Virus record (IMG/VR): IMGVR_UViG_3300036985_006573
Span: 1 to 42,964 of that record
Origin: a virus
Strand: one strand, 5' to 3'
Length of the DNA stretch: 42,964 bases
Both the position numbers and the translations under genes were made by a program. Position 1 is the first letter of the stretch. Every line of letters starts with the position of its first letter. Shown here in pieces: positions 6,712 to 42,964 of the stretch. The notes beneath the pieces are model-generated. The model had not been told where the DNA came from. It searched no databases and was given only the letters and a program-made list of their open reading frames with translations.

Positions 6712-6969
6712 ATGCCCAAACCCGAAGTAGAGTATTACGATTGCCCCACTTGCGACAACGAGCAATGGCTCGAAGTCTATCAAGGCAAAGACAAAGGTGG
6801 CAGCATACACCGAGTGGAATGCCCAGATTGTATGGGAGAGAACGACCTGACTGACTGCCCAACCTGTAAAGGCATCGGCTTAGTTAAGAGCGATGGCAGC
6901 CAAGGCATCATCGAACTCACCCCAGAAGGGAAACAAGTCTGGCTCAAATGCCCCACTTGTAATCGCTGA
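6712..6969 (+). CDS. Double zinc-ribbon small protein
   Basis: An 85-residue protein with four CxxC pairs: CPTC, CPDC, CPTC, CPTC, giving two zinc sites arranged like the DnaJ cysteine-rich repeat. The first half matches the C-terminal ribbon of 4865-5179. ATG 6712 is chosen because AAAGGGG precedes it; the frame also runs upstream to 6667 but that crosses a hairpin. Flanked by terminator-like hairpins, so it is probably a monocistronic unit. Function unknown. Confidence 0.75.
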   Translation: MPKPEVEYYDCPTCDNEQWLEVYQGKDKGGSIHRVECPDCMGENDLTDCPTCKGIGLVKSDGSQGIIELTPEGKQVWLKCPTCNR

Positions 6970-6985
6970 ACGACCAGTCCACACC

Positions 6986-7021
6986 ACCCCACATGCCCTA
7001 ACAACCGTGTGGGGTTTTTTA
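6986..7021 (+). terminator. Rho-independent terminator
   Basis: accccaca (6986-6993) pairs with tgtggggt (7008-7015), followed by a run of T to 7019. It directly follows the zinc-ribbon gene. Confidence 0.8.
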
Positions 7022-7043
7022 TTGCTCACGCTTAACTAACAAC

Positions 7044-7589
7044 ATGGACCGAACACTCCTCTGGCAAGCCAAACAAACTTACCTCGCACAATGCCTTGCA
7101 CACACCACACACGTCTTAGGACTCACTGCCGAGATAGGAGTCTACCTAGGTGGCACAAGTGCCTACATAGCTAATCACAACGAGAACAAGCCACACCTAG
7201 CAGCAGACACTTATGGGGTTGGAATAGTACACGCTGGATCAAAAGACCAACACGTCAATGGCGAGTTCACTGTAGACAGAACAGAAGTCATCAACTACCT
7301 CAGAACCATCCCCAACATCATACCAATTGTTGGAATATTCCCCGAATCATTCACTAGCATCGAAGCCACGTTCAGTTTCGTCCACGTCGACTTAGACACG
7401 TATCAAGGCACGATAGACAGCCTAACTTACTTCTGGGATAGACTCAATACAGGAGCATGCCTGCTCTATGACGATTGGCAATGGGGCAACTGCGTAGGCG
7501 TAACAACTGCCCTACAAGAGTTCTTAAAAGAGAACCCGAAAGTAGCATGGTCAGAGGGCAGCAACCAACTCGCCCTCTGGAAAACCTAA
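7044..7589 (+). CDS. TylF/macrocin-type O-methyltransferase
   Basis: A 181-residue protein matching the TylF pattern: AEIGVYLGGTS (29-39) binds SAM, FVHVDLDTY (112-120) and LLYDDW (140-145) provide the acidic metal-binding residues used by these sugar O-methyltransferases. It is shorter than typical TylF proteins (about 250 residues), as is common for phage versions. No clear ribosome binding site precedes ATG 7044, and a terminator lies 23 bases upstream, so expression must rely on an internal promoter or read-through. Convergent with the 1245-residue tail protein. Likely substrate is a methylated sugar, inferred from the family. Confidence 0.82.
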   Translation: MDRTLLWQAKQTYLAQCLAHTTHVLGLTAEIGVYLGGTSAYIANHNENKPHLAADTYGVGIVHAGSKDQHVNGEFTVDRTEVINYLRTIPNIIPIVGIFPESFTSIEATFSFVHVDLDTYQGTIDSLTYFWDRLNTGACLLYDDWQWGNCVGVTTALQEFLKENPKVAWSEGSNQLALWKT

Positions 7590-15861: not shown

Positions 15862-17931
15862 TTAAGTATGGCTAAAAATCAACTTTCTGGCTTCGTATTT
15901 TTTGACTAATTGTTCACCTGTGGATGACAAGTGATAGGTGAAGGAACTATTCTTTATCCCCGTGCCTACTCTTAGTGTATATCCTTCATTGAAGGATTGG
16001 TGTAGGATGTTTTTAACGTGTTTGGGGGTCTTATCTGTGAGCTTCGCTATGGTGTCTGGGGTTATGTCATCATTGGGGGTAATGGTGAGGTGTTGGAGGT
16101 AGGTAAAGAATCTAAGTTCATTGTCTTCTTTTTGTAAGCTGCTTAGTTCTTGTGAGCCAGTGATGACTACGCTGCTGTCATCCCCTTCTCCGATGCGTTC
16201 GCAGTCTAGCATGAACTTTGTGAATGGTTCGTAGTCCTTTTGTTTGATACACTCTACTGTGATGCCGTCTAGGATGGTGGCTTTTTCTCCACCGCTCTTG
16301 TTGGCACTTATCATGGTGTCCACTGCGGCTCTGAGGCATGAGTGTCCTCTTTCTCGTTCGCTGTTCCATCCGGTGTGGTGAACCACGATTACGGAGCATT
16401 CGTAGGTTTTTCTGAGGTTGTCTGCGACTCTTACGAACTTGCCCATTGTGTCCGCATCACTGTCGCTGCCTCCTAGGTTGGCTGCTAGGGTGTCTATGAC
16501 GATGATTTTAGGCACTTGGGGGCTGGTGTTGATGATATCTTTCAGTGCGGCGTGTTCTTCGTCTAGGACGAGTTGGAATGCGTCTGGGATACAGTAGAAG
16601 TCGGATGCTGCTTCTTCGGCTAGGTTGTAGTATTCTAGCCAGCGTGAGCAACGTTTGTGTATTCCGGGTTGTCCTTCGGCTGCGATGTAGATGGCTGTTC
16701 CTTTTTGGGTTTCATGGTTGAGCCAAGGTTTGCCTACTGCGGTGGACATACACCAGTCTAGGGCGATGAATGATTTGGCTGAGCCAGATTGCCCCCAGAG
16801 GATGGTGATTGATTTTTGGGGGACTATGTTTTTGATTTGCCATCCTGGTCTGGGGATTGTTCCCATGCGGCTAATGCTCCATAGGGAGCGGTAGGGGTTG
16901 GCATTTGGTTGGGGTATCAATTCAAAAGGGTTTGCGTCTACTTCTCCTCCTGTTACGATTGCGTTGACCCGTGCTTCTTCATCCCCCAACCATTTGTAGT
17001 ATTCGGTGGTGTTATCAATGCTGTTTTGGATGGTGCGGCGTTTGTAGTCTTCCCTATCCCATTTGTCTCGGTAGAGTCCTGATTGTTTGAAGCATTCGTC
17101 TATGAGTTCTTCGTTTGGTCCGCAGTAGAAGGTTAGGTGGGAACAGAGGGCTTGGTCTGCTCTACTGTGGTCATTATCATGTTCTGCGAGACTGCCAGAC
17201 CAGAGTTTGATGAACTTGTCCCCATTTTTTGCTCGACTAGCGACTTCGATGATTTCGCTAACTTGTGCGGTGGTGATGGGAACTGGGGTGGGCTTGTTTT
17301 CTGGTTTGATTTTTTCTGGTGTGTTTACGAGTCCGCCTAGGTAGGTTTCGTAGATTTGGTTGAGTTGCTCTTGTCGGCTTGCTACGGCTTGGATTGTGCC
17401 TGCTACTCTATGACCTGTGATGGTGAGGTAGCGATAGCTGGTGTGATCGTAGATTTCAATTTTGCCATTGCGGTAGCGTCTTGACCCTTGTTCTCCTGGC
17501 ATTACCCCCGTGAGGATGATGCGTATGCCTGTTCCACTGGGTGAATACTCAGTGTAGGAGTTGATACAGTTGATGATGCTGGCTGCCCACGGTTCGATGA
17601 TACCATCTTTCACGCATGCGTCTAGGTCGATGCCTGTTTTGCCTTCGCCTACTACGATACCAATGCCATCAATGTTTGGGATTTGAGATTGAAACATGGC
17701 TGCGTCAAAGGTTGACCATGTTTCGGGGGCATTGGTCTTAGCATACCATTTGGGGTTGCGACTAACTTTTGGAACTTTTGTCCAAGGTTTTTTTGCGTTG
17801 CGGTCTTCGTTATACTTGTATTCCCATAGTACCCATCGGTTCATTTGTTTGAGTTCGATGGGGATGTTTTCGAAGATGGGTTTCAATACGGCGGGTTTTA
17901 CAATTTGCTCTTGATTTTGGTTCTCATCCAT
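15862..17931 (-). CDS. Primase-polymerase fused to RecA-like helicase
   Basis: 689 residues. N-terminal archaeo-eukaryotic primase (prim-pol) domain about 20-200: RWVLWEY near 32, the metal-binding GIDLDAC at 100-106, and SPSGTGIR at 130-137, as in NrS-1-type phage primase-polymerases. A linker helical domain (about 225-310) has the SRADQAL...QSGLYRDKW pattern. Residues 355-600 are a RepA/RecA-fold ATPase: Walker A GQSGSAKS (380-387), Walker B KIIVID (475-480) and VVHHTG (516-521). The last about 80 residues look like a winged helix. It probably primes and unwinds DNA, and may be the only polymerase-like enzyme of the phage. TATAAT lies 4 nt before the ATG and no good ribosome binding site is present. 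Confidence 0.9.
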   Translation of the reverse strand: MDENQNQEQIVKPAVLKPIFENIPIELKQMNRWVLWEYKYNEDRNAKKPWTKVPKVSRNPKWYAKTNAPETWSTFDAAMFQSQIPNIDGIGIVVGEGKTGIDLDACVKDGIIEPWAASIINCINSYTEYSPSGTGIRIILTGVMPGEQGSRRYRNGKIEIYDHTSYRYLTITGHRVAGTIQAVASRQEQLNQIYETYLGGLVNTPEKIKPENKPTPVPITTAQVSEIIEVASRAKNGDKFIKLWSGSLAEHDNDHSRADQALCSHLTFYCGPNEELIDECFKQSGLYRDKWDREDYKRRTIQNSIDNTTEYYKWLGDEEARVNAIVTGGEVDANPFELIPQPNANPYRSLWSISRMGTIPRPGWQIKNIVPQKSITILWGQSGSAKSFIALDWCMSTAVGKPWLNHETQKGTAIYIAAEGQPGIHKRCSRWLEYYNLAEEAASDFYCIPDAFQLVLDEEHAALKDIINTSPQVPKIIVIDTLAANLGGSDSDADTMGKFVRVADNLRKTYECSVIVVHHTGWNSERERGHSCLRAAVDTMISANKSGGEKATILDGITVECIKQKDYEPFTKFMLDCERIGEGDDSSVVITGSQELSSLQKEDNELRFFTYLQHLTITPNDDITPDTIAKLTDKTPKHVKNILHQSFNEGYTLRVGTGIKNSSFTYHLSSTGEQLVKKYEARKLIFSHT

Positions 17932-19367: not shown

Positions 19368-19408
19368 GATACTATTCTAAGATATAACCTATATTAGGAG
19401 GATGAATA

Positions 19409-20020
19409 ATGAGATTTTCAGAATATAAAGTTGATTTAGAATTCACAGAAATGCTGCTTGGTGCATGCCCGAAAAGTGAGTCCCTCTACAAGGATTTTAT
19501 TGCCAGCAAAGCACCCGTGCCAGAGGATGCTGAGGAAGCTGAGTTGCCTGATTTGCAAGCCAGTGAGGAACGTGGCTGGACTACTTTCCTACGTGATGAA
19601 AACGGTCCATATTTGAGGCATCATGTGATTAAGGGAGCGTTTAAGGATAGTATACAAATGTTAAACAGAGACTCTCAAAGTGAATGCAAGAAGCCAAATT
19701 TGAAGGCGTTCAAAAAGATCGTTGACGGTTGTGTGTTTGTTGAACCAGATAAGTTGCATTTAATATTGCCTAAGGGTGGTGCTGAGGGTGTGTTTGAGAG
19801 ACCTCTAAGGGTTGCTGATAAGTCGGGTGAGCGTGTTACTCTTGTGCGTTCGGATACTTGCCCGATTGGGACTAAGTGTTCTTTCACGTTGAGAGTTATG
19901 GGAGATGCTATAACTGAGGTGCAAATTAAGGAAGTATTGGAATATTGGGGGTATAGAGGTATCAGTCAATTTCGCAATGCTGGTTATGGCAAATGCATTG
20001 CGAAGATTAAGAAGATGTAG
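19409..20020 (+). CDS. Conserved phage RAMP-like early protein
   Basis: 203 residues with a strong AGGAGG site. It has the order of motifs I know from a common but uncharacterised phage family, mostly in Firmicutes phages: FTEMLLGACPKS, DFIASKAP, GWTTFLRDE, HHVIKGAFKDS, VFVEPDKL, FERPLRV and a C-terminal YRGISQFRNAGYGK. The glycine-rich end and alternating strands recall a ferredoxin/RAMP-type fold, though no Cas function is implied. A long repeat-like non-coding tract follows directly, and I recall similar tracts next to relatives of this gene. Function unknown. Confidence 0.7.
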   Translation: MRFSEYKVDLEFTEMLLGACPKSESLYKDFIASKAPVPEDAEEAELPDLQASEERGWTTFLRDENGPYLRHHVIKGAFKDSIQMLNRDSQSECKKPNLKAFKKIVDGCVFVEPDKLHLILPKGGAEGVFERPLRVADKSGERVTLVRSDTCPIGTKCSFTLRVMGDAITEVQIKEVLEYWGYRGISQFRNAGYGKCIAKIKKM

Positions 20021-20035
20021 TTCATAGTCTTCGTT

Positions 20036-20060
20036 GGGACAGGGATGTCCCCTCCTTTTT
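20036..20060 (+). terminator. Terminator-like hairpin after RAMP-like gene
   Basis: gggaca (20036-20041) pairs with tgtccc (20046-20051); ctcc then TTTTT follow. It is 16 bases after the stop at 20020. Confidence 0.55.
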
Positions 20061-20103
20061 ATGCGATAGCATAGGATGGTATGGCGGTGTGAGCATTGAG
20101 ATG

Positions 20104-20127
20104 GCAGAGCGTAAGCGATAGCAAGGA
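20104..20127 (+). repeat. 24-base repeat unit, copy 1
   Basis: Contains the core gcgtaagcgatagcaa. Compared with copy 2 (20326-20349) it differs at one base, and with copy 3 (20573-20596) at two. Confidence 0.8.
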
Positions 20128-20325
20128 AACCCATCGCCCAGTAATGGCAGAGCGTAAGTGTTCCGTCGAAACTATAAGCAAGGCAACCGAAAAATAGCAA
20201 CGGCTATGGATACACCGGCGATTCCACACAAAGCATCAGCATAGATAAGTCCGGTATAGCGTGGTTAAGGCAATACAATAATTCACGAGTACAGCGATGG
20301 CTAAGCGATATCGAAGTGAGCTTGA

Positions 20326-20349
20326 GCAGAGCGTGAGCGATAGCAAGGA
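20326..20349 (+). repeat. 24-base repeat unit, copy 2
   Basis: Core gcgtgagcgatagcaa, one base different from copy 1. Confidence 0.8.
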
Positions 20350-20572
20350 GAGACAATCCTACGATAAGATGAGGCATAGGTAGGCTTTGCACTGTAATGT
20401 AACGGAAAAGTTAAGTGAGTTGTGATAACAATTAAAAAGCAGCGGCATAGGCATTAACGGAATTGTAGAGCAATAGCAGAGATATGTGTGCAAGGGAATG
20501 GCAAAGGCTAATAAGCAACGTAATTGCAAAGCTCAACAAGGAAACGGCATAGCATTGCTCAGATGGGCAATA

Positions 20573-20596
20573 GCATAGCGTAAGCGATAGCAAAGA
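20573..20596 (+). repeat. 24-base repeat unit, copy 3
   Basis: Core gcgtaagcgatagcaa, with two differences from copy 1 outside the core. Confidence 0.8.
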
Positions 20597-20676
20597 TAAG
20601 GGTGGATATGTGAAGCGAGGGCATGATAGATCATGGTTATGCACTGAGAGGGTATAGCAAAGCCGGTGCTGCGAGG

Positions 20677-21003
20677 TCATCGCTCGGGTAGGACTCGTTT
20701 GCTCGCATAAAGTTTAAGATTTTTGTCATAGGATTGAGAGGACAAGTAACGGTGTCGGACACAATTTCTAATCATCTGTGTTAGGTAAGCAAACGCATTA
20801 GCGTCAGGGTTGATTAAGTGTAATTTTGATAAACAATGGATAAAACAGTCTTGTTGCAAATCATCACCATCTTGCCCGATATAATATCGGCTCAGTGTCC
20901 CTCTAATAATGTCAGTGAGCATTTTTGTGAGGGCAGGGGATGCAACGCTCGTTCTAGACCAAGCGAGCAACTCGGTTCGTAGGATTGTTTTTGAGAGGTA
21001 CAC
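20677..21003 (-). CDS. Sigma-70 region 2-like phage sigma factor
   Basis: About 108 residues, GTG start at 21003 uncertain because only 5 bases separate it from the divergent ATG 21009; an internal start (for example ATG at residue 28) is possible. Residues about 45-86 (DGDDLQQDCFIHCL, then FAYLTQMIRNCVRHRY) match sigma region 2 helices as seen in the T4 late sigma gp55, where a similar DDM.Q...NC and FAYFTQI pattern occurs. It lacks region 4. Likely reprograms host RNA polymerase for phage promoters such as the ACTAAATA boxes. Downstream lies the repeat tract. Confidence 0.6.
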   Translation of the reverse strand: MYLSKTILRTELLAWSRTSVASPALTKMLTDIIRGTLSRYYIGQDGDDLQQDCFIHCLSKLHLINPDANAFAYLTQMIRNCVRHRYLSSQSYDKNLKLYASKRVLPER

Positions 21004-23120: not shown

Positions 23121-24062
23121 TTGTTTGAAAACATTTCTTTCGCCGGGCTGAATGGTGATATCCTATGTCTCACAATAGCAGTTGAGTCCTTAGTTAAATC
23201 TTATCCCGATAAGTATGATATTTTCGTCCAGACTAGTTGCGATCAGATTTGGCAGCACAATCCGCATGTTAAGATTATCCCGTGGACATCACCCGTGCCT
23301 GATGGAGTGCGTGTAATTGATTGCACCTACAGTACAATCAATAGGTCATCACAAGAGCCGTGGCGTATGCTGGAGGGCTACACACATGACCTAGGCACTT
23401 ATCTTGGTGTCCCCCTGCATCCTAGGATAAACAAGCCTTGCGTTTATCTCACAGAGGAGGAGTTATCTTGGATGAGTCTAGTGCAGCAACATTTCACACA
23501 TAAAACAACCAAATACGTTTTGTTTTCGCCCGCTTCAAAGCGAGACTACACGAATAAAAATTATCCATCTTCGCATTGGCAAAAAATAATTGATCATTTT
23601 GCAGGTACTTTAACCTTTGTTCAAATTGGTAGCAAGGACGCTAACAATCCGAAGTTAAATAATTGTTTGAATGCGGTTGGTATGACGGATCACAGACAAT
23701 TCTTACGACTGGTAGCTCACAAAGATTGCTTGATGGGATTAGGTTGTATCACCTATCTGATGCACGCCTGTGCTGCTTTTGAGAAGCCCTATATTTTACT
23801 CAACGGCGGCAGAGAACCTACCAGTTGGGTTACGGGTTATAGGTTGCAGCACACAATTAGCTCGGTTGGTCTATTGCCTTGCTCAGGTCATGGTTGTTGG
23901 CGATCACGAGTTGTTCCAATTGGGGACGGAGATAAAAAGGATTCATCTTTATGCGAGCAACCAGTATTGCACCTCGGGGATTTTCCGTCCCCGAGGTGCA
24001 TGGCAATGATTGAGCCAACGGAGGTTTGCCATGCCGTTGAGCGAATATTACGCTTCAGTTAG
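23121..24062 (+). CDS. GT9/heptosyltransferase-like glycosyltransferase
   Basis: 313 residues from TTG 23121, the only start codon available after an in-frame TAG at 23076; the start is therefore uncertain. It has GT-B features of the ADP-heptose-type family: an N-terminal Rossmann half beginning GLNGDILCLTIAVESLVKSY, then YVLFSPASKRDYTNK, HWQKIIDHF, TFVQIGSKDA and GLGCITYLMHACAAF, in which the donor is held. The C-terminal C..HGCW...DSSLCEQPV pattern is also seen in relatives. Ends in the same 4 bases as the convergent polyserine tail gene. A 13-bp hairpin (23968-24000) lies in its last codons. Likely transfers a sugar to a phage or host glycan. Confidence 0.72.
   Translation: MFENISFAGLNGDILCLTIAVESLVKSYPDKYDIFVQTSCDQIWQHNPHVKIIPWTSPVPDGVRVIDCTYSTINRSSQEPWRMLEGYTHDLGTYLGVPLHPRINKPCVYLTEEELSWMSLVQQHFTHKTTKYVLFSPASKRDYTNKNYPSSHWQKIIDHFAGTLTFVQIGSKDANNPKLNNCLNAVGMTDHRQFLRLVAHKDCLMGLGCITYLMHACAAFEKPYILLNGGREPTSWVTGYRLQHTISSVGLLPCSGHGCWRSRVVPIGDGDKKDSSLCEQPVLHLGDFPSPRCMAMIEPTEVCHAVERILRFS
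23968..24000. terminator. Perfect 13-bp hairpin inside coding end
   Basis: tgcacctcgggga (23968-23980) pairs with tccccgaggtgca (23988-24000) around a 7-base loop. It lies 60 bases before the end of the glycosyltransferase gene, which overlaps the convergent tail gene. No T-run follows; it could stop convergent polymerases or protect the mRNA. Confidence 0.7.
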
Positions 24063-26773
24063 TTACAGTCAGTCCAAGTTGTATCAAGTTCGGAGCTTCC
24101 GTCGTGGGTCGGGTAATCACAGGTGCAAGGAGCGTAACACGAGGTAACGGCTGTAACCTCCATCCATAATCCCGGCATCCCAGAGAATCCCGGAAACCAT
24201 TCAAAAAGACAAGCACTCTCCCCAGAACAATTACTACTGCTGATTGACGAACTAGAAGAACTAGAGCTACTAGAAGAACTAGATGAACTACTAGAAGAAC
24301 TAGAACTAGAGCTACTAGATGAACTAGATGAACTACTAGAAGAACTAGATGAACTGCTTACACAACAATTTTCATATTTTTGACTTTCATAAGTTCCCGA
24401 GGTCGGTGGGTCAGGACAATCACACCCCGCAACACTACAGGAGATATCCTTCACCCAAACAGGGGGTTCAGCCCACACGTCCCAATACCACCGGCACATT
24501 TGTCCAGAACATTGTACGCATGAACTGCTGCTGCTGCTGCTGCTAGAACACGAGTGTGATGATGATGAAGAGCCACATTTGGCATTGACCGTCTCACCAT
24601 CGGAGCAACCTGAGCCTTGTGGGGGGACGCACGAGCAGGAACTCATGCTTGTGCAGGAAGCTGTAATCTCATACCATTCGCCGAAAATCTCGTTCCATCC
24701 GAAAATGCAATCACCCGAACATGACTGACAAATGCTTGATTGGGATTGTGAGCTAGAGCATTCGCTACACACTACCAAAGCAAACGTTCCCTCCTCAGGA
24801 GACCCTGAGGGACACGGAGCACAACACGAGTGCGATGGGCAACCCTCACAGGGTATCTCCAACTGCCAAGCTGACCCGTCGCCATACCACAAAGCACCCT
24901 CTGCTTCCCCTCCGCAATCGGAGCATGAACAATTCACTGCACAGGGTGGTGTGATAATTACGTGTCCGCTACTGCTTGTAAGATTAAAATCGCAAGCGTG
25001 CGAGTCGATTTGTCCGTAGGATGAACCATCCACCGTTGGGTATAAGCACTGACACGGTGGGTATGTGCTGTCGTTGCAAGGAGAACAGGTATGACACAAA
25101 GCCCATGAATCCTCTGGCGATACCGATCCGGCAGTCCATTCCCACACGCAAGCACCGGTACACGATTTGCTACTGCTACTGCTACTGCTACTGCTACTTG
25201 AACAACACAAGTAGACTTGCTCTTGACCGTAAGGAGACGCTCCGCAAAAGTAACCATCAGCAAATCGTAATTTTAGCAACCCCTGCTTTATCCAATCTCC
25301 AACCCTGAAAATATTCCCATCACCAACGATAACCGTACCAGTCCAACGACAACGAGAACTTGAACTAGAACTACTACTTGAACTAGAACTAGAACTTGAA
25401 CTTGAACTAGAACTTGAACTAGAACTTGAACTAGACGGGCATACTGTGGCATGCTCGTGGTGCAAATATACGTAATCTAAATTGAAGGAATCACCAGTCA
25501 GCCGTGTACTTACCGTTTTACATGACCACTCAAAAAATGCTTCTACTGCCCCGTCAGGTGTCCAATTAAATATGCCATTGAGTACAATGTCTGTATCGGT
25601 TAAAGTCTTCCAGTTGATATAATCTGCTGCTACTGCACTCGCCAGAGCATCCAATTGAGCCTTATTTTCTGGATCGCCATAAGCCCCAGAGGAAGGACAA
25701 TCACAATAAAACGCTCTAGCGTTATCCTTAAATATTTTTTCATTTCCAATGACACCTAGGTAATTGGAAATCGAACTCGTGTAAACCGTTACCGTGTAAT
25801 ACTCGGCAGCACTCAAAGGATTGGGCTGGTGATAAACCACGTTGTCCTTATCAGCCCAGTTATCCTTACCACTGTAATCTTGTGTGCGTGAGTTGTGGCT
25901 ACTCATAGGGTGATAGGTTGTGTCCGTGCCACACCATTTAGGGAACGTAACGATGAACGTTTCGGGTAGGATAGCTTCAAAATACTTATCGTTGGATACG
26001 CCACCAGCAGCATAATCCCACGATTGGATTTTATTTATGTTGGCTTGATGATCAGATTTGCAATTGACGTAAGTACGAGTCTTATATGTTCCGTCTAATT
26101 TTCTAATTAAACGTTGACCAACATTCATGCAAACAGCGTCTAGGAACGAAGCGGCATTCGCATAATTACCTGCTTCCCATAGCTCACCAACTTTACTAGG
26201 TGTGCCGTAAGTCGTGGGGATTGCATCTGAGGTGAGTGTTATGCCCATCGCAGTAGCAATACCCGAAAGTAATCCAGACCACGTTAGGAGCGATGTCTGC
26301 CCCGTGTGTTTATATTGTTGCCAGAAATACCTGTCATCCACTAAGCAGCACAGATATAAATCGTTCGTGGGGTTGTTGTCCCCCATGGTCGCTAGGGGTG
26401 ATGGTGGTAGCAGATAGAGCGGTGTGGTAATGCTCACACCATTCATTGTCATATTGAAGTTACATGCTGTTGGCGAACCATTAGGGTAGGCGTGGGACTC
26501 TATATTAGCGAGCATGGTTGAAGTACAAATAAACCAAAATTCACACCACTTGCTAGCACCGTTTGGATAGTAGAGTTTGTTTAATTCTAGGTGGTTTTGG
26601 TTCTCATGGCTAGTTAAAAATGTGAGACCACCATTTTGACCTGGGTAGACTGCACCCACAACCATACGACGAGCATCCCGCAATGGAATAGTAGACTCTA
26701 TCCACGCTTCTAAATCGGGCATGTTAAGAACTAAGTCCTGTCCCGCATAGCTCATTCGATTCACTTGTGCCAT
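24059..26773 (-). CDS. Polyserine Cys/Trp-module tail protein
   Basis: 904 residues. The N-terminal about 420 residues look like a tail or baseplate protein (WIESTIPLRDARR, VGAVYPGQNGG early). From about 440 it has long uninterrupted Ser runs joining five Cys-rich modules of about 45-55 residues with the pattern C.[GS].C.[FW].W.....W......C....C.C..P..G....C. Disulfide-bonded modules on flexible Ser stalks suggest an outward-facing receptor or surface-binding protein. Ser runs use mixed codons. Glycosyltransferase gene 23121-24062 abuts its 3' end. Such modules with polyserine linkers recall planctomycete proteins (recollection only). Confidence 0.8.
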   Translation of the reverse strand: MAQVNRMSYAGQDLVLNMPDLEAWIESTIPLRDARRMVVGAVYPGQNGGLTFLTSHENQNHLELNKLYYPNGASKWCEFWFICTSTMLANIESHAYPNGSPTACNFNMTMNGVSITTPLYLLPPSPLATMGDNNPTNDLYLCCLVDDRYFWQQYKHTGQTSLLTWSGLLSGIATAMGITLTSDAIPTTYGTPSKVGELWEAGNYANAASFLDAVCMNVGQRLIRKLDGTYKTRTYVNCKSDHQANINKIQSWDYAAGGVSNDKYFEAILPETFIVTFPKWCGTDTTYHPMSSHNSRTQDYSGKDNWADKDNVVYHQPNPLSAAEYYTVTVYTSSISNYLGVIGNEKIFKDNARAFYCDCPSSGAYGDPENKAQLDALASAVAADYINWKTLTDTDIVLNGIFNWTPDGAVEAFFEWSCKTVSTRLTGDSFNLDYVYLHHEHATVCPSSSSSSSSSSSSSSSSSSSSSSSSSSSRCRWTGTVIVGDGNIFRVGDWIKQGLLKLRFADGYFCGASPYGQEQVYLCCSSSSSSSSSSSKSCTGACVWEWTAGSVSPEDSWALCHTCSPCNDSTYPPCQCLYPTVDGSSYGQIDSHACDFNLTSSSGHVIITPPCAVNCSCSDCGGEAEGALWYGDGSAWQLEIPCEGCPSHSCCAPCPSGSPEEGTFALVVCSECSSSQSQSSICQSCSGDCIFGWNEIFGEWYEITASCTSMSSCSCVPPQGSGCSDGETVNAKCGSSSSSHSCSSSSSSSSSCVQCSGQMCRWYWDVWAEPPVWVKDISCSVAGCDCPDPPTSGTYESQKYENCCVSSSSSSSSSSSSSSSSSSSSSSSSSSSSSSSSSSSSSSISSSNCSGESACLFEWFPGFSGMPGLWMEVTAVTSCYAPCTCDYPTHDGSSELDTTWTDCN

Positions 26774-41412: not shown

Positions 41413-42964
41413 ATGACTGCCATTGACCTCACCACTGCTCTTATTGTTACTGACTCCGACACGGGTGCTTTAACTGTAACTACATCAAGCATAAGTTACG
41501 ATCACACCATTACCCCCACTGCGTTCGTAAATGTGGGCATTCCAATCCCTGATATGCTAACAGATTGGGCTTTGGATTGGACAATTCATGTTGCAACTAG
41601 TGATGCAACTACAATGATTAGACCATTCATTGCCTCAGAAATGTTTACTGGTCTAACCCCAGTCCTACCTTATGTGAGTTTATCGCCAATTAGTGCGGAT
41701 AGTTCTGGTGTTGATTCGGTGAGTAGTGGCTTGTTATTGTGTCAAGAACCAGAATCATGGTGGGGCGGGTCATGCACTGCTATCAATAATTCTGATTTTA
41801 CCATTGTGAATGGTGCTGGTTCAGTTGAAAGCGTGATAACATTAAGCGAACCAACATTTAGCATTCAAACCGTGATCAACTCGGATAGCACATCGGGATA
41901 CATCACTAGGGACTTTGGTCAGGCATTACAGCAATGGACTCACGTTTTCAATGTGAATTACACTGATGGAATCACAGATTTACCAACCGATTCTTTCGTT
42001 GAAATCTACCGTGCCAATAACGGATATTTTGATACTTCTGATACAACGGGTGTTGGTTTTGGGTTGAAGAAAGTATTATCTGATAGCACACACTTGCTAC
42101 AATTGATTGGTGGTAATTTAACCACAACAGTGGGTTCGCCATTTGAAGATACCAATATTGTTATTTCAGTGATTAGAGCTTTGACAGGTCCACCTGTACC
42201 TGTTGAGCAGGTTGATGTTACGGTTACACCGTATGGTTCACCAGAAACACTCTTAGTAGACGAGACTCTTACAAGTTCACTAACGGACACTTATTATTAT
42301 TTGTCTTTTAGTCGAAGTAATATGGGTGGGGGTACACCGGCATTGGGTCATAAGTATGATTTGACTATCAATTCTATAACACCCAACCCGTGGTTACCCA
42401 GCACGATCACAATTGCTGGTGATCAAGTTATTATGGATGAACCTGATTATCCAGCAATACCAGTTGATACTGACTTGTATTGTCGTTTAGAAAGAGTGTC
42501 TTCGGATAACCCAAGTATTGATGGGACTGAGGTGATAGCAACGAATGAATGTGATGGTTCATTCAGTGCATTGCCATCCACAATTCAAGCAATTAGATTA
42601 TCATTTTTCAGTGATGCCGAACGCACTACAGCAATTCCTTGGAATGATACGAATAGCGACCCACTCAGTGTTTACACTGGTCCTCCTGCTGGGCAAACAA
42701 TGCCAACTGGTTACTTGACATTCCAAGTTGCACCAGCATCGGGTGATTTTGTCGTGAGCGACGTGAGTTTCCTAACAAGTGAGTCATCTAGTTCGGAATC
42801 TAGTTCGGAATCATCGTCTGAGTCATCCTCAGAAGAATCTAGTTCGGAATCATCGTCTGAGTCTAGTTCGGAGTCTAGTTCGGAATCATCGTCTGAGTCA
42901 TCCTCAGAAGAATCTAGTTCGGAATCTAGTTCGGAGTCATCCTCAGAAGAATCTAGTTCGGAAT
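41413..42964 (+). CDS. Giant serine-linker tail/adhesin protein, N-terminal part
   Basis: Open from ATG 41413 (AAGGA 9 nt upstream) to the window end; through the 81-bp overlap it continues at base 3. The first about 455 residues are beta-rich: an N-terminal domain of about 90 residues (TALIVTDSDTGALTVTT start, WTIHVATSD), several strand-rich segments, then an SFFSDAERTTAI pattern typical of fibre domains, and finally the SSSE array starting at 42784. No signal peptide. Inferred to be the virion-attachment end of the fibre, the repeats and modules forming the outer part. Alone on the plus strand, divergent from the terminase block. Confidence 0.82.
   Translation, partial: MTAIDLTTALIVTDSDTGALTVTTSSISYDHTITPTAFVNVGIPIPDMLTDWALDWTIHVATSDATTMIRPFIASEMFTGLTPVLPYVSLSPISADSSGVDSVSSGLLLCQEPESWWGGSCTAINNSDFTIVNGAGSVESVITLSEPTFSIQTVINSDSTSGYITRDFGQALQQWTHVFNVNYTDGITDLPTDSFVEIYRANNGYFDTSDTTGVGFGLKKVLSDSTHLLQLIGGNLTTTVGSPFEDTNIVISVIRALTGPPVPVEQVDVTVTPYGSPETLLVDETLTSSLTDTYYYLSFSRSNMGGGTPALGHKYDLTINSITPNPWLPSTITIAGDQVIMDEPDYPAIPVDTDLYCRLERVSSDNPSIDGTEVIATNECDGSFSALPSTIQAIRLSFFSDAERTTAIPWNDTNSDPLSVYTGPPAGQTMPTGYLTFQVAPASGDFVVSDVSFLTSESSSSESSSESSSESSSEESSSESSSESSSESSSESSSESSSEESSSESSSESSSEESSSE
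42784..42964 (+). repeat. SSSE-coding repeat array, right part
   Basis: Continuation of the array at 3-290, with the same units tct-agt-tcg-gaa, tca-tcg-tct-gag and tca-tcc-tca-gaa-gaa. The merged array would encode about 129 Ser/Glu residues if no copies were lost in assembly. Confidence 0.9.
42884..42964. repeat. Terminal 81-bp direct overlap, right copy
   Basis: Identical to bases 1-81; see the left copy. Confidence 0.93.

Follow-up and report, generated by a model that had tools for sequence, protein, structure and literature searches.

Stand-alone Cas7-fold proteins and adjoining non-coding tracts with a five-nucleotide beat: a probable CRISPR-independent ribonucleoprotein cassette of phages and bacteria

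The window considered here is the whole stretch of viral DNA that was analysed, the 42,964 nucleotides of IMG/VR virus record IMGVR_UViG_3300036985_006573. It includes a gene for a 203-aa protein, followed on the same strand by a non-coding tract in which a G recurs every five or six nucleotides and by a small convergent gene. The 12/39-nt repeats common to both record ends suggest a circular or permuted phage genome. The features of the window are listed below; the ribosome-binding-site-like motif and the hairpin are readings of the sequence.

12 to 291 and 42786 to 42964: the same 12/39-nt repeats
15862 to 17931, minus strand: primase/helicase with an NrS-1-like helical bundle domain and an AAA_25 ATPase
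19396 to 19401, plus strand: ribosome-binding-site-like AGGAGG ahead of the gene
19409 to 20020, plus strand: stand-alone Cas7-family (RAMP) protein, 203 aa
20036 to 20060, plus strand: terminator-like hairpin GGGACA-GGGA-TGTCCC (20036-20051), then CTCCTTTTT, at the gene/tract junction
about 20061 to 20700, plus strand: periodic non-coding tract of G-N-N-N-N units with 5- and 6-nt steps, the sole tract in the window
20101 to 20127, plus strand: 27-nt repeat, copy 1, ATGGCAGAGCGTAAGCGATAGCAAGGA
20144 to 20170, plus strand: 27-nt repeat, partial copy (70%)
20323 to 20349, plus strand: 27-nt repeat, copy 2 (85%)
20570 to 20596, plus strand: 27-nt repeat, copy 3 (89%)
20677 to 21003, minus strand: small sigma-70 region 2-like protein (Pfam E 3.6e-4), convergent with the tract
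24059 to 26773, minus strand: poly-serine protein

A preliminary description of this DNA had singled out positions 20021-20676 as a tract of recurring short motifs. The stretch is indeed non-random, but its periodic part runs from about 20061 to 20700, starting past the hairpin. A cyclic hidden Markov model (HMM) of G-N-N-N-N units scores 20061-20676 at +30.7, against a shuffled mean of -86.9 (sd 11.0); as none of 1000 dinucleotide-preserving shuffles scores as high, the pattern stands above chance, and it is confirmed as real. The G autocorrelation at lag 5 is 0.19 (z = 4.5; 0/1000 shuffles), and the top HMM score outside the tract, over both strands of the whole 43 kb, is -11.7. There are 51 copies of ATAGC in the 43-kb window, 11 of them in the 656-bp tract. 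The 24-base unit reported three times was recovered as the full 27-nt copies at 20101, 20323 and 20570 (85-100% identical to the reference) and the partial copy at 20144, whereas the spacing of AGC/GGC cores, given as 6-7 bases, is actually 5 and sometimes 6 nt. No plus-strand gene was found in 20021-20676, and the minus-strand frames are fragmented into pieces of 62-131 aa, as had been described. The pattern is strongest at about 20470-20700 and degenerate at about 20140-20320; the tract is of the same kind as those of the relatives described below but looser, with commoner 6-nt steps (29%). The hairpin at 20036-20060 is weak, falling narrowly below a stringent terminator scan. The tract DNA has no match in 50,697 phage records.

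The window protein as sole query had no match in viral contigs. A tblastn search recovered distant relatives in human-gut phages, a Microcystis phage and Hydrogenobaculum phage 1, with flanks of like style. One gut-phage relative, used as query, yielded 64 viral loci, and an alignment query yielded 71 loci in bacterial and archaeal genomes (Clostridia, Coriobacteriia, Saccharibacteria, Chloroflexota, Planctomycetota, Thermodesulfobacteriota and others; many are metagenome bins, and some host names may be wrong). No match to the family was found in plasmids. Tracts were called at a threshold of +2 by a 6-state model of the units, whose maximum was -4.6 in shuffled windows and -12.4 in the coding sequences of family genes. 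The letter preferences of the model were set from about 20 tracts that sit among the tallied viral loci; neither the genome loci nor the controls had a part in that setting.

A tract touches the gene at 125 of 129 usable loci (59/62 viral or phage loci, without duplicates, and 66/67 genome loci), lying downstream only in 76, upstream only in 37 and on both sides in 12. The G strand of the tract is the sense strand of the gene throughout, and no locus has a tract on the opposite strand only. Proteins as little as about 30% identical still adjoin a tract. The exceptions are the Microcystis phage (L040), where C replaces G; L048, where the initial bases of a tract follow the gene and then give way to unrelated coding sequence; L097, with a tract about 560 nt from the gene; and L150, with a very short upstream stretch of about 100 nt of G-units. 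L150, from a Lokiarchaeota bin, also has, downstream of the gene (about 6950-7230), repeats of GTGACGCCCACGTGCGCATGGGAGGATGG separated by unique spacers of 25-40 nt, in a layout that recalls a small CRISPR-like array. No tract was found in 274,565 bases of unrelated viral contigs, the unrelated output of an exact-motif scan that served as negative control. Among 18 virus records scanned, mostly complete, 15 have a single tract, at the gene; three weak tract pieces lie downstream of the gene in the Hydrogenobaculum phage, the G model detects none in the Microcystis phage, and a 258-kb virus has additional tracts. That gene and tract form one system across hosts, which the preliminary description had proposed, is thus strongly supported: the two are a two-part cassette. 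The pair occurs in just a handful of the 50,697 phage records, a possible reason for its having been missed.

In 131 tracts, each unit consists of a G (95%), a base other than G (C 56, A 27, T 14%), a base leaning to A or G, and two bases of any kind. Units follow one another in 5-nt steps, with a 6-nt step (the extra base being G in 93%) per 5.8 units on average, and the mean step of 5.175 nt varies little between tracts (sd 0.024). The 6-nt “GG” step recurs every 5-6 units, with a superperiod of about 31 nt: the G autocorrelation, still coherent beyond 120 nt, peaks at 5, 10, 15/16, 21, 26, 31 ... 62, 93 and 124 nt, multiples of 31 among them. Seams spaced 26-36 nt apart, with the motif G-C-A-A-N-GG-[CA]-A, end runs of about 5-7 units, and tracts in the family comprise about 60-280 units. 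The regularity of the 6-nt steps is far above chance (variance 3.9 versus 27.5), and the lengths of consecutive runs are independent, observed and shuffled values being equal, which implies discrete seam-ended runs rather than a nucleic acid read against a rigid helix. The tract of the Microcystis phage keeps the 5/6 period with C as its fixed base (98%; log-likelihood gain 42.6 versus 9.2 for shuffled sequence, sd 3.6), and in that of the Hydrogenobaculum phage G is fixed (gain 104 versus 8.3). Internal duplications of several units within the tract of L045 (4620-5230) indicate that tracts probably grow by phase-keeping duplication. The period is more alike among similar proteins, weakly but significantly (Mantel r -0.18, 1/500 permutations), which a geometry dictated by the protein would predict. 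The second base (C, T or A) was rejected as a marker of protein clades (22 changes for label C on the tree, shuffled mean 22.8).

Related phages reveal what is maintained in the tracts. Divergence at G sites, at the last two letters of the unit (u4/u5) and at 4-fold silent sites of the neighbouring gene is 1.4%, 17% and 26% for L117/L123; 1.8%, 30% and 43% for L071/L077; and 0.9%, 15% and 24% for L052/L056. The periodic Gs diverge by about 1-5% in clean comparisons and by more in a few poorly alignable pairs, and the rate of change at u4/u5 ranges from about half that of 4-fold silent sites up to parity with it. Indels of at least 4 nt keep the phase (5, 10, 31, 42, 47 and 93 nt), with a mean residual of 0.50 nt versus 1.29 expected. 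The beat is therefore under selection and the intervening letters are nearly free, which argues against a guide, codon or base-pairing role. The structured RNA offered as one reading in the preliminary description finds no backing in folding energy, which differs little from that of shuffled sequence on the two strands (z -0.36 and 0.02), or in Rfam 15, where L091, L136 and L138 have no match at the gathering score and the best match of the window, snoU13 (E 0.22), lies on the other strand, below gathering.

The 203-aa protein falls outside every curated protein family searched. Its match to Pfam RAMPs (PF03787) is below the cutoff (E 0.092; 13.7 bits versus a gathering score of 22.1), and that profile matches just 1 of 52 family members. 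PHROGs gives no matches for the family, NCBIfam two irrelevant single matches and no family, and PADLOC, from which the family itself is absent, a weak match to Cas7_IIId in 6 of 52 members (best E 7e-4). A profile of 52 relatives matches the type VII Cas7 (E 5e-5) and Csm4 (5e-4) in the PDB, in a short region through the C-terminal G-x-G-x-W-R-N-x-G-x-G. AlphaFold models of the window protein (pLDDT 85.5, pTM 0.80) and of its relative L136 (pLDDT 88.7, pTM 0.83) have a predicted ferredoxin-like Cas7 architecture. In Foldseek, Cas7 subunits of type VII and type III systems outrank all else (E 2e-7 for the window protein and 4e-9 for L136; TM about 0.56 to Cas7 backbone subunits), and the best 50 matches are chains of type III, type VII or Cas7-11 CRISPR complexes. 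With both models matching the Cas7 backbone above everything, the label “RAMP-like” given earlier to the gene holds, and the protein is best described as a stand-alone Cas7-fold protein.

No conserved neighbour family was found at the loci, and the cassette is without a fixed partner gene. Phage cassettes lie in early regions near genes for a repressor, antirepressor, SSB, RecT, RusA, YqaJ, Sak or DnaB. On a 221-kb Saccharibacteria contig (L112, 5980-7160) the cassette is flanked by gatB and a sugar-nucleotidyltransferase gene, its tract having terminator-like hairpins on both sides, and on a Chloroflexota contig (L126, 4867-5850) it sits within an apparent tad-like pilus operon. The absence of a fixed partner, together with sites in phages and in apparent chromosomes, indicates that the cassette travels alone, untied to a phage core function. 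PADLOC, applied to 77 neighbours, returned among the matches listed (25 of 112 families) only restriction/methylase and single orphan Cas12/TnpB-like hits, and no CRISPR backbone or processing partner was seen in the neighbourhood tables among those same matches. The neighbouring cas10, cas5, cas14 or cas6 gene or array of a type III or VII CRISPR-Cas effector was not found as a conserved neighbour or among the matches listed.

Terminators are rare in the gap between gene and tract (2/86) and not clearly enriched after the tract (6/84). In L086 and L104 they bracket the tract on both sides. An identical CGCGTAAAAAACACA element with a terminator hairpin stands ahead of both tract and gene in L086 (2960-4010), as though a single antitermination or promoter signal turned on the two. 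The 258-kb virus behind L104 (G027) has a second tract of about 2.6 kb (58799-61388, minus strand, in the direction of its neighbours), far from the gene and split by a putative TnpB/OrfB-like ORF, so read from its N-terminus. Its neighbours are a metallophosphatase gene and mobilisation genes (NikA-like, relaxase), without an adjoining Cas7-like gene; a tract thus need not be the leader of the gene itself. The fixed sense of tracts on either side of the gene and the terminator-bracketed tracts favour RNA as the active form, short of proof.

The explanation considered somewhat better than even is that the Cas7-like protein polymerises on the RNA of its own tract, with about one subunit per 5-nt unit. 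The tract would be transcribed in the direction of the gene, its RNA being either a 3' or 5' leader of the gene or a distinct transcript bounded by terminators. Along this RNA the protein would form a ribonucleoprotein filament, the invariant G of each unit being held in a subunit pocket. The extra G every 26-36 nt would end each series of about 5-7 subunits, which would probably correspond to a turn or a segment of the filament. With almost no constraint on the bases that separate the Gs, the RNA would be a scaffold and not a guide. An array bound by the RAMP-like protein, as in the preliminary description, is the best fit among the three readings offered there. Several points run counter to a filament: the identity of the second base in the unit is not in step with the protein tree; a few loci, the window included, have a terminator-like hairpin in the gap between gene and tract; each subunit of the known Cas7 backbones occupies 6 nt, as opposed to 5 here; and twice the mean step (2 x 5.175 = 10.35) is near the DNA helical repeat.

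The nearest known systems have parts of the cassette but not the whole. Cas7/Csm3 backbones of types VII and III-A share the fold, by the Foldseek scores above, and the C-terminal loop match; unlike them, the window family stands alone, and by its gene lies a non-repetitive tract with a 5.2-nt period instead of a crRNA with the CRISPR period of 6 nt. Filament formation on RNA is a known property of Cas7 proteins. In type IV-B systems, Csf2 forms a filament on heterogeneous non-CRISPR RNA, with six Csf2 per particle (PMC7937560), much as is proposed for the window family. That complex differs in having several subunits (Cas11 and others) and no dedicated periodic tract, and the Csf2, Cas11 and Csf1/Csf3 gene set has no counterpart in this family, which lacks a conserved partner gene. 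TRAP binds one short RNA element per subunit, the (G/U)AG leader repeats recurring every 5-6 nt with unconserved spacers (PMC3913778), but it is an unrelated, tryptophan-dependent 11-mer ring of 75-aa subunits on 11 repeats, compared with about 60-280 units here. TifA of T4-like phages, an RNA-binding counter-defence protein that acts via a large ribonucleoprotein (PMC10853763), is a functional analogy only, being without a Cas7 fold or a known dedicated RNA. ToxIN likewise joins a protein and an adjoining repetitive non-coding RNA in one cassette; it has another fold, true tandem repeats with pseudoknots, and its RNA upstream only.

The main physical rival of the filament is a tract that acts as DNA, an origin or a recombination, single-strand loading or packaging site bound by the Cas7-fold protein. 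The many cassettes near replication and recombination genes (SSB, RecT, RusA, YqaJ, Sak, DnaB) and the doubled period of 10.35 nt would suit such a site. It is nevertheless unlikely, because the G strand is the sense strand whether the tract lies up- or downstream, cassettes occur by gatB and the nucleotidyltransferase gene (L112) and in the tad-like operon (L126), and terminators flank both sides of some tracts (L086, L104). A DNA-helix ruler was rejected, the run lengths between seams being independent draws, unlike a rigid helical ruler, and the period differing between phages and tracking the protein. The single-strand DNA loading or packaging site of the preliminary description is made less likely by the fixed sense orientation, the apparent-chromosome copies and the terminators around some tracts.

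The main functional rival, a type III toxin-antitoxin-like pair in which the protein is harmful and the adjoining repetitive RNA is its antitoxin or sink, is also doubtful. The compact pairing of a single protein with a repeat-rich non-coding RNA in phages and apparent chromosomes, a tract always retained with the gene, and a terminator parting tract from gene in L086, like toxIN (PMC8860590), would all agree with it. The fold, however, is that of Cas7 and not ToxN, no repeated pseudoknot units are indicated (folding z about 0), and tracts lie mostly downstream whereas toxI lies upstream; a ToxN-fold endoribonuclease after a tandem repeat RNA was not found. An orphan cas7 anti-CRISPR gene beside an unrelated by-product tract has precedent in the Cas-homologous anti-CRISPRs of phages, such as the Cas5 mimic AcrIB3 (PMC13131331), but it is very unlikely: adjacency across proteins of about 30% identity and purifying selection on the Gs argue that the tract is not a by-product. 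An anti-CRISPR role of the whole particle is possible. Guide arrays loaded into Cas7-like complexes, with the 31-nt blocks as guides, would account for the fold and for 26-36-nt blocks with a seam motif, but are highly improbable. There are no conserved repeats, all that the units have in common being a G every 5-6 nt and the weak seam motif, and no CRISPR backbone or processing partner appears in the neighbourhood tables among the matches listed; the near-neutrality of the non-G sites led to the rejection of a guide RNA as such. Chance low-complexity or decayed coding sequence might be suspected from the degenerate window copy viewed alone, yet its probability is negligible given 0/1000 shuffles, the same architecture at more than 120 loci and frames broken on both strands.

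The preferred reading is thus of a ribonucleoprotein filament, and a guess at its use is phage-host or phage-phage conflict, as decoy, sink or scaffold particle. The guess comes from cassettes in early phage regions and alone in apparent bacterial chromosomes, and would be in line with the counter-defence of TifA and with Cas-like anti-CRISPRs. No description of such a gene-tract pair was found in the literature searched, many subscription journals and preprints lying outside that search. The pair is likewise absent from the family libraries and the Rfam release searched.

On balance, the cassette seems likely to be a new kind of ribonucleoprotein element, in which a stand-alone protein of the Cas7 family and an RNA transcribed along with it, marked only by a 5-nt beat and a GG seam about every 31 nt, form a defined filament. 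The mobile cassette would spread, independently of CRISPR, among viruses and bacteria belonging to many phyla. If this is true, an RNA would be selected for its rhythm, rather than for its letters, base pairs or reading frame, and that rhythm would be matched to a CRISPR-related protein with no CRISPR nearby. The cassette adds a widespread unannotated element to phage and bacterial genomes. With one base in five seemingly read, it would offer a testable code for programmable RNA filaments, and it could reveal roles of Cas7 before or beside CRISPR.
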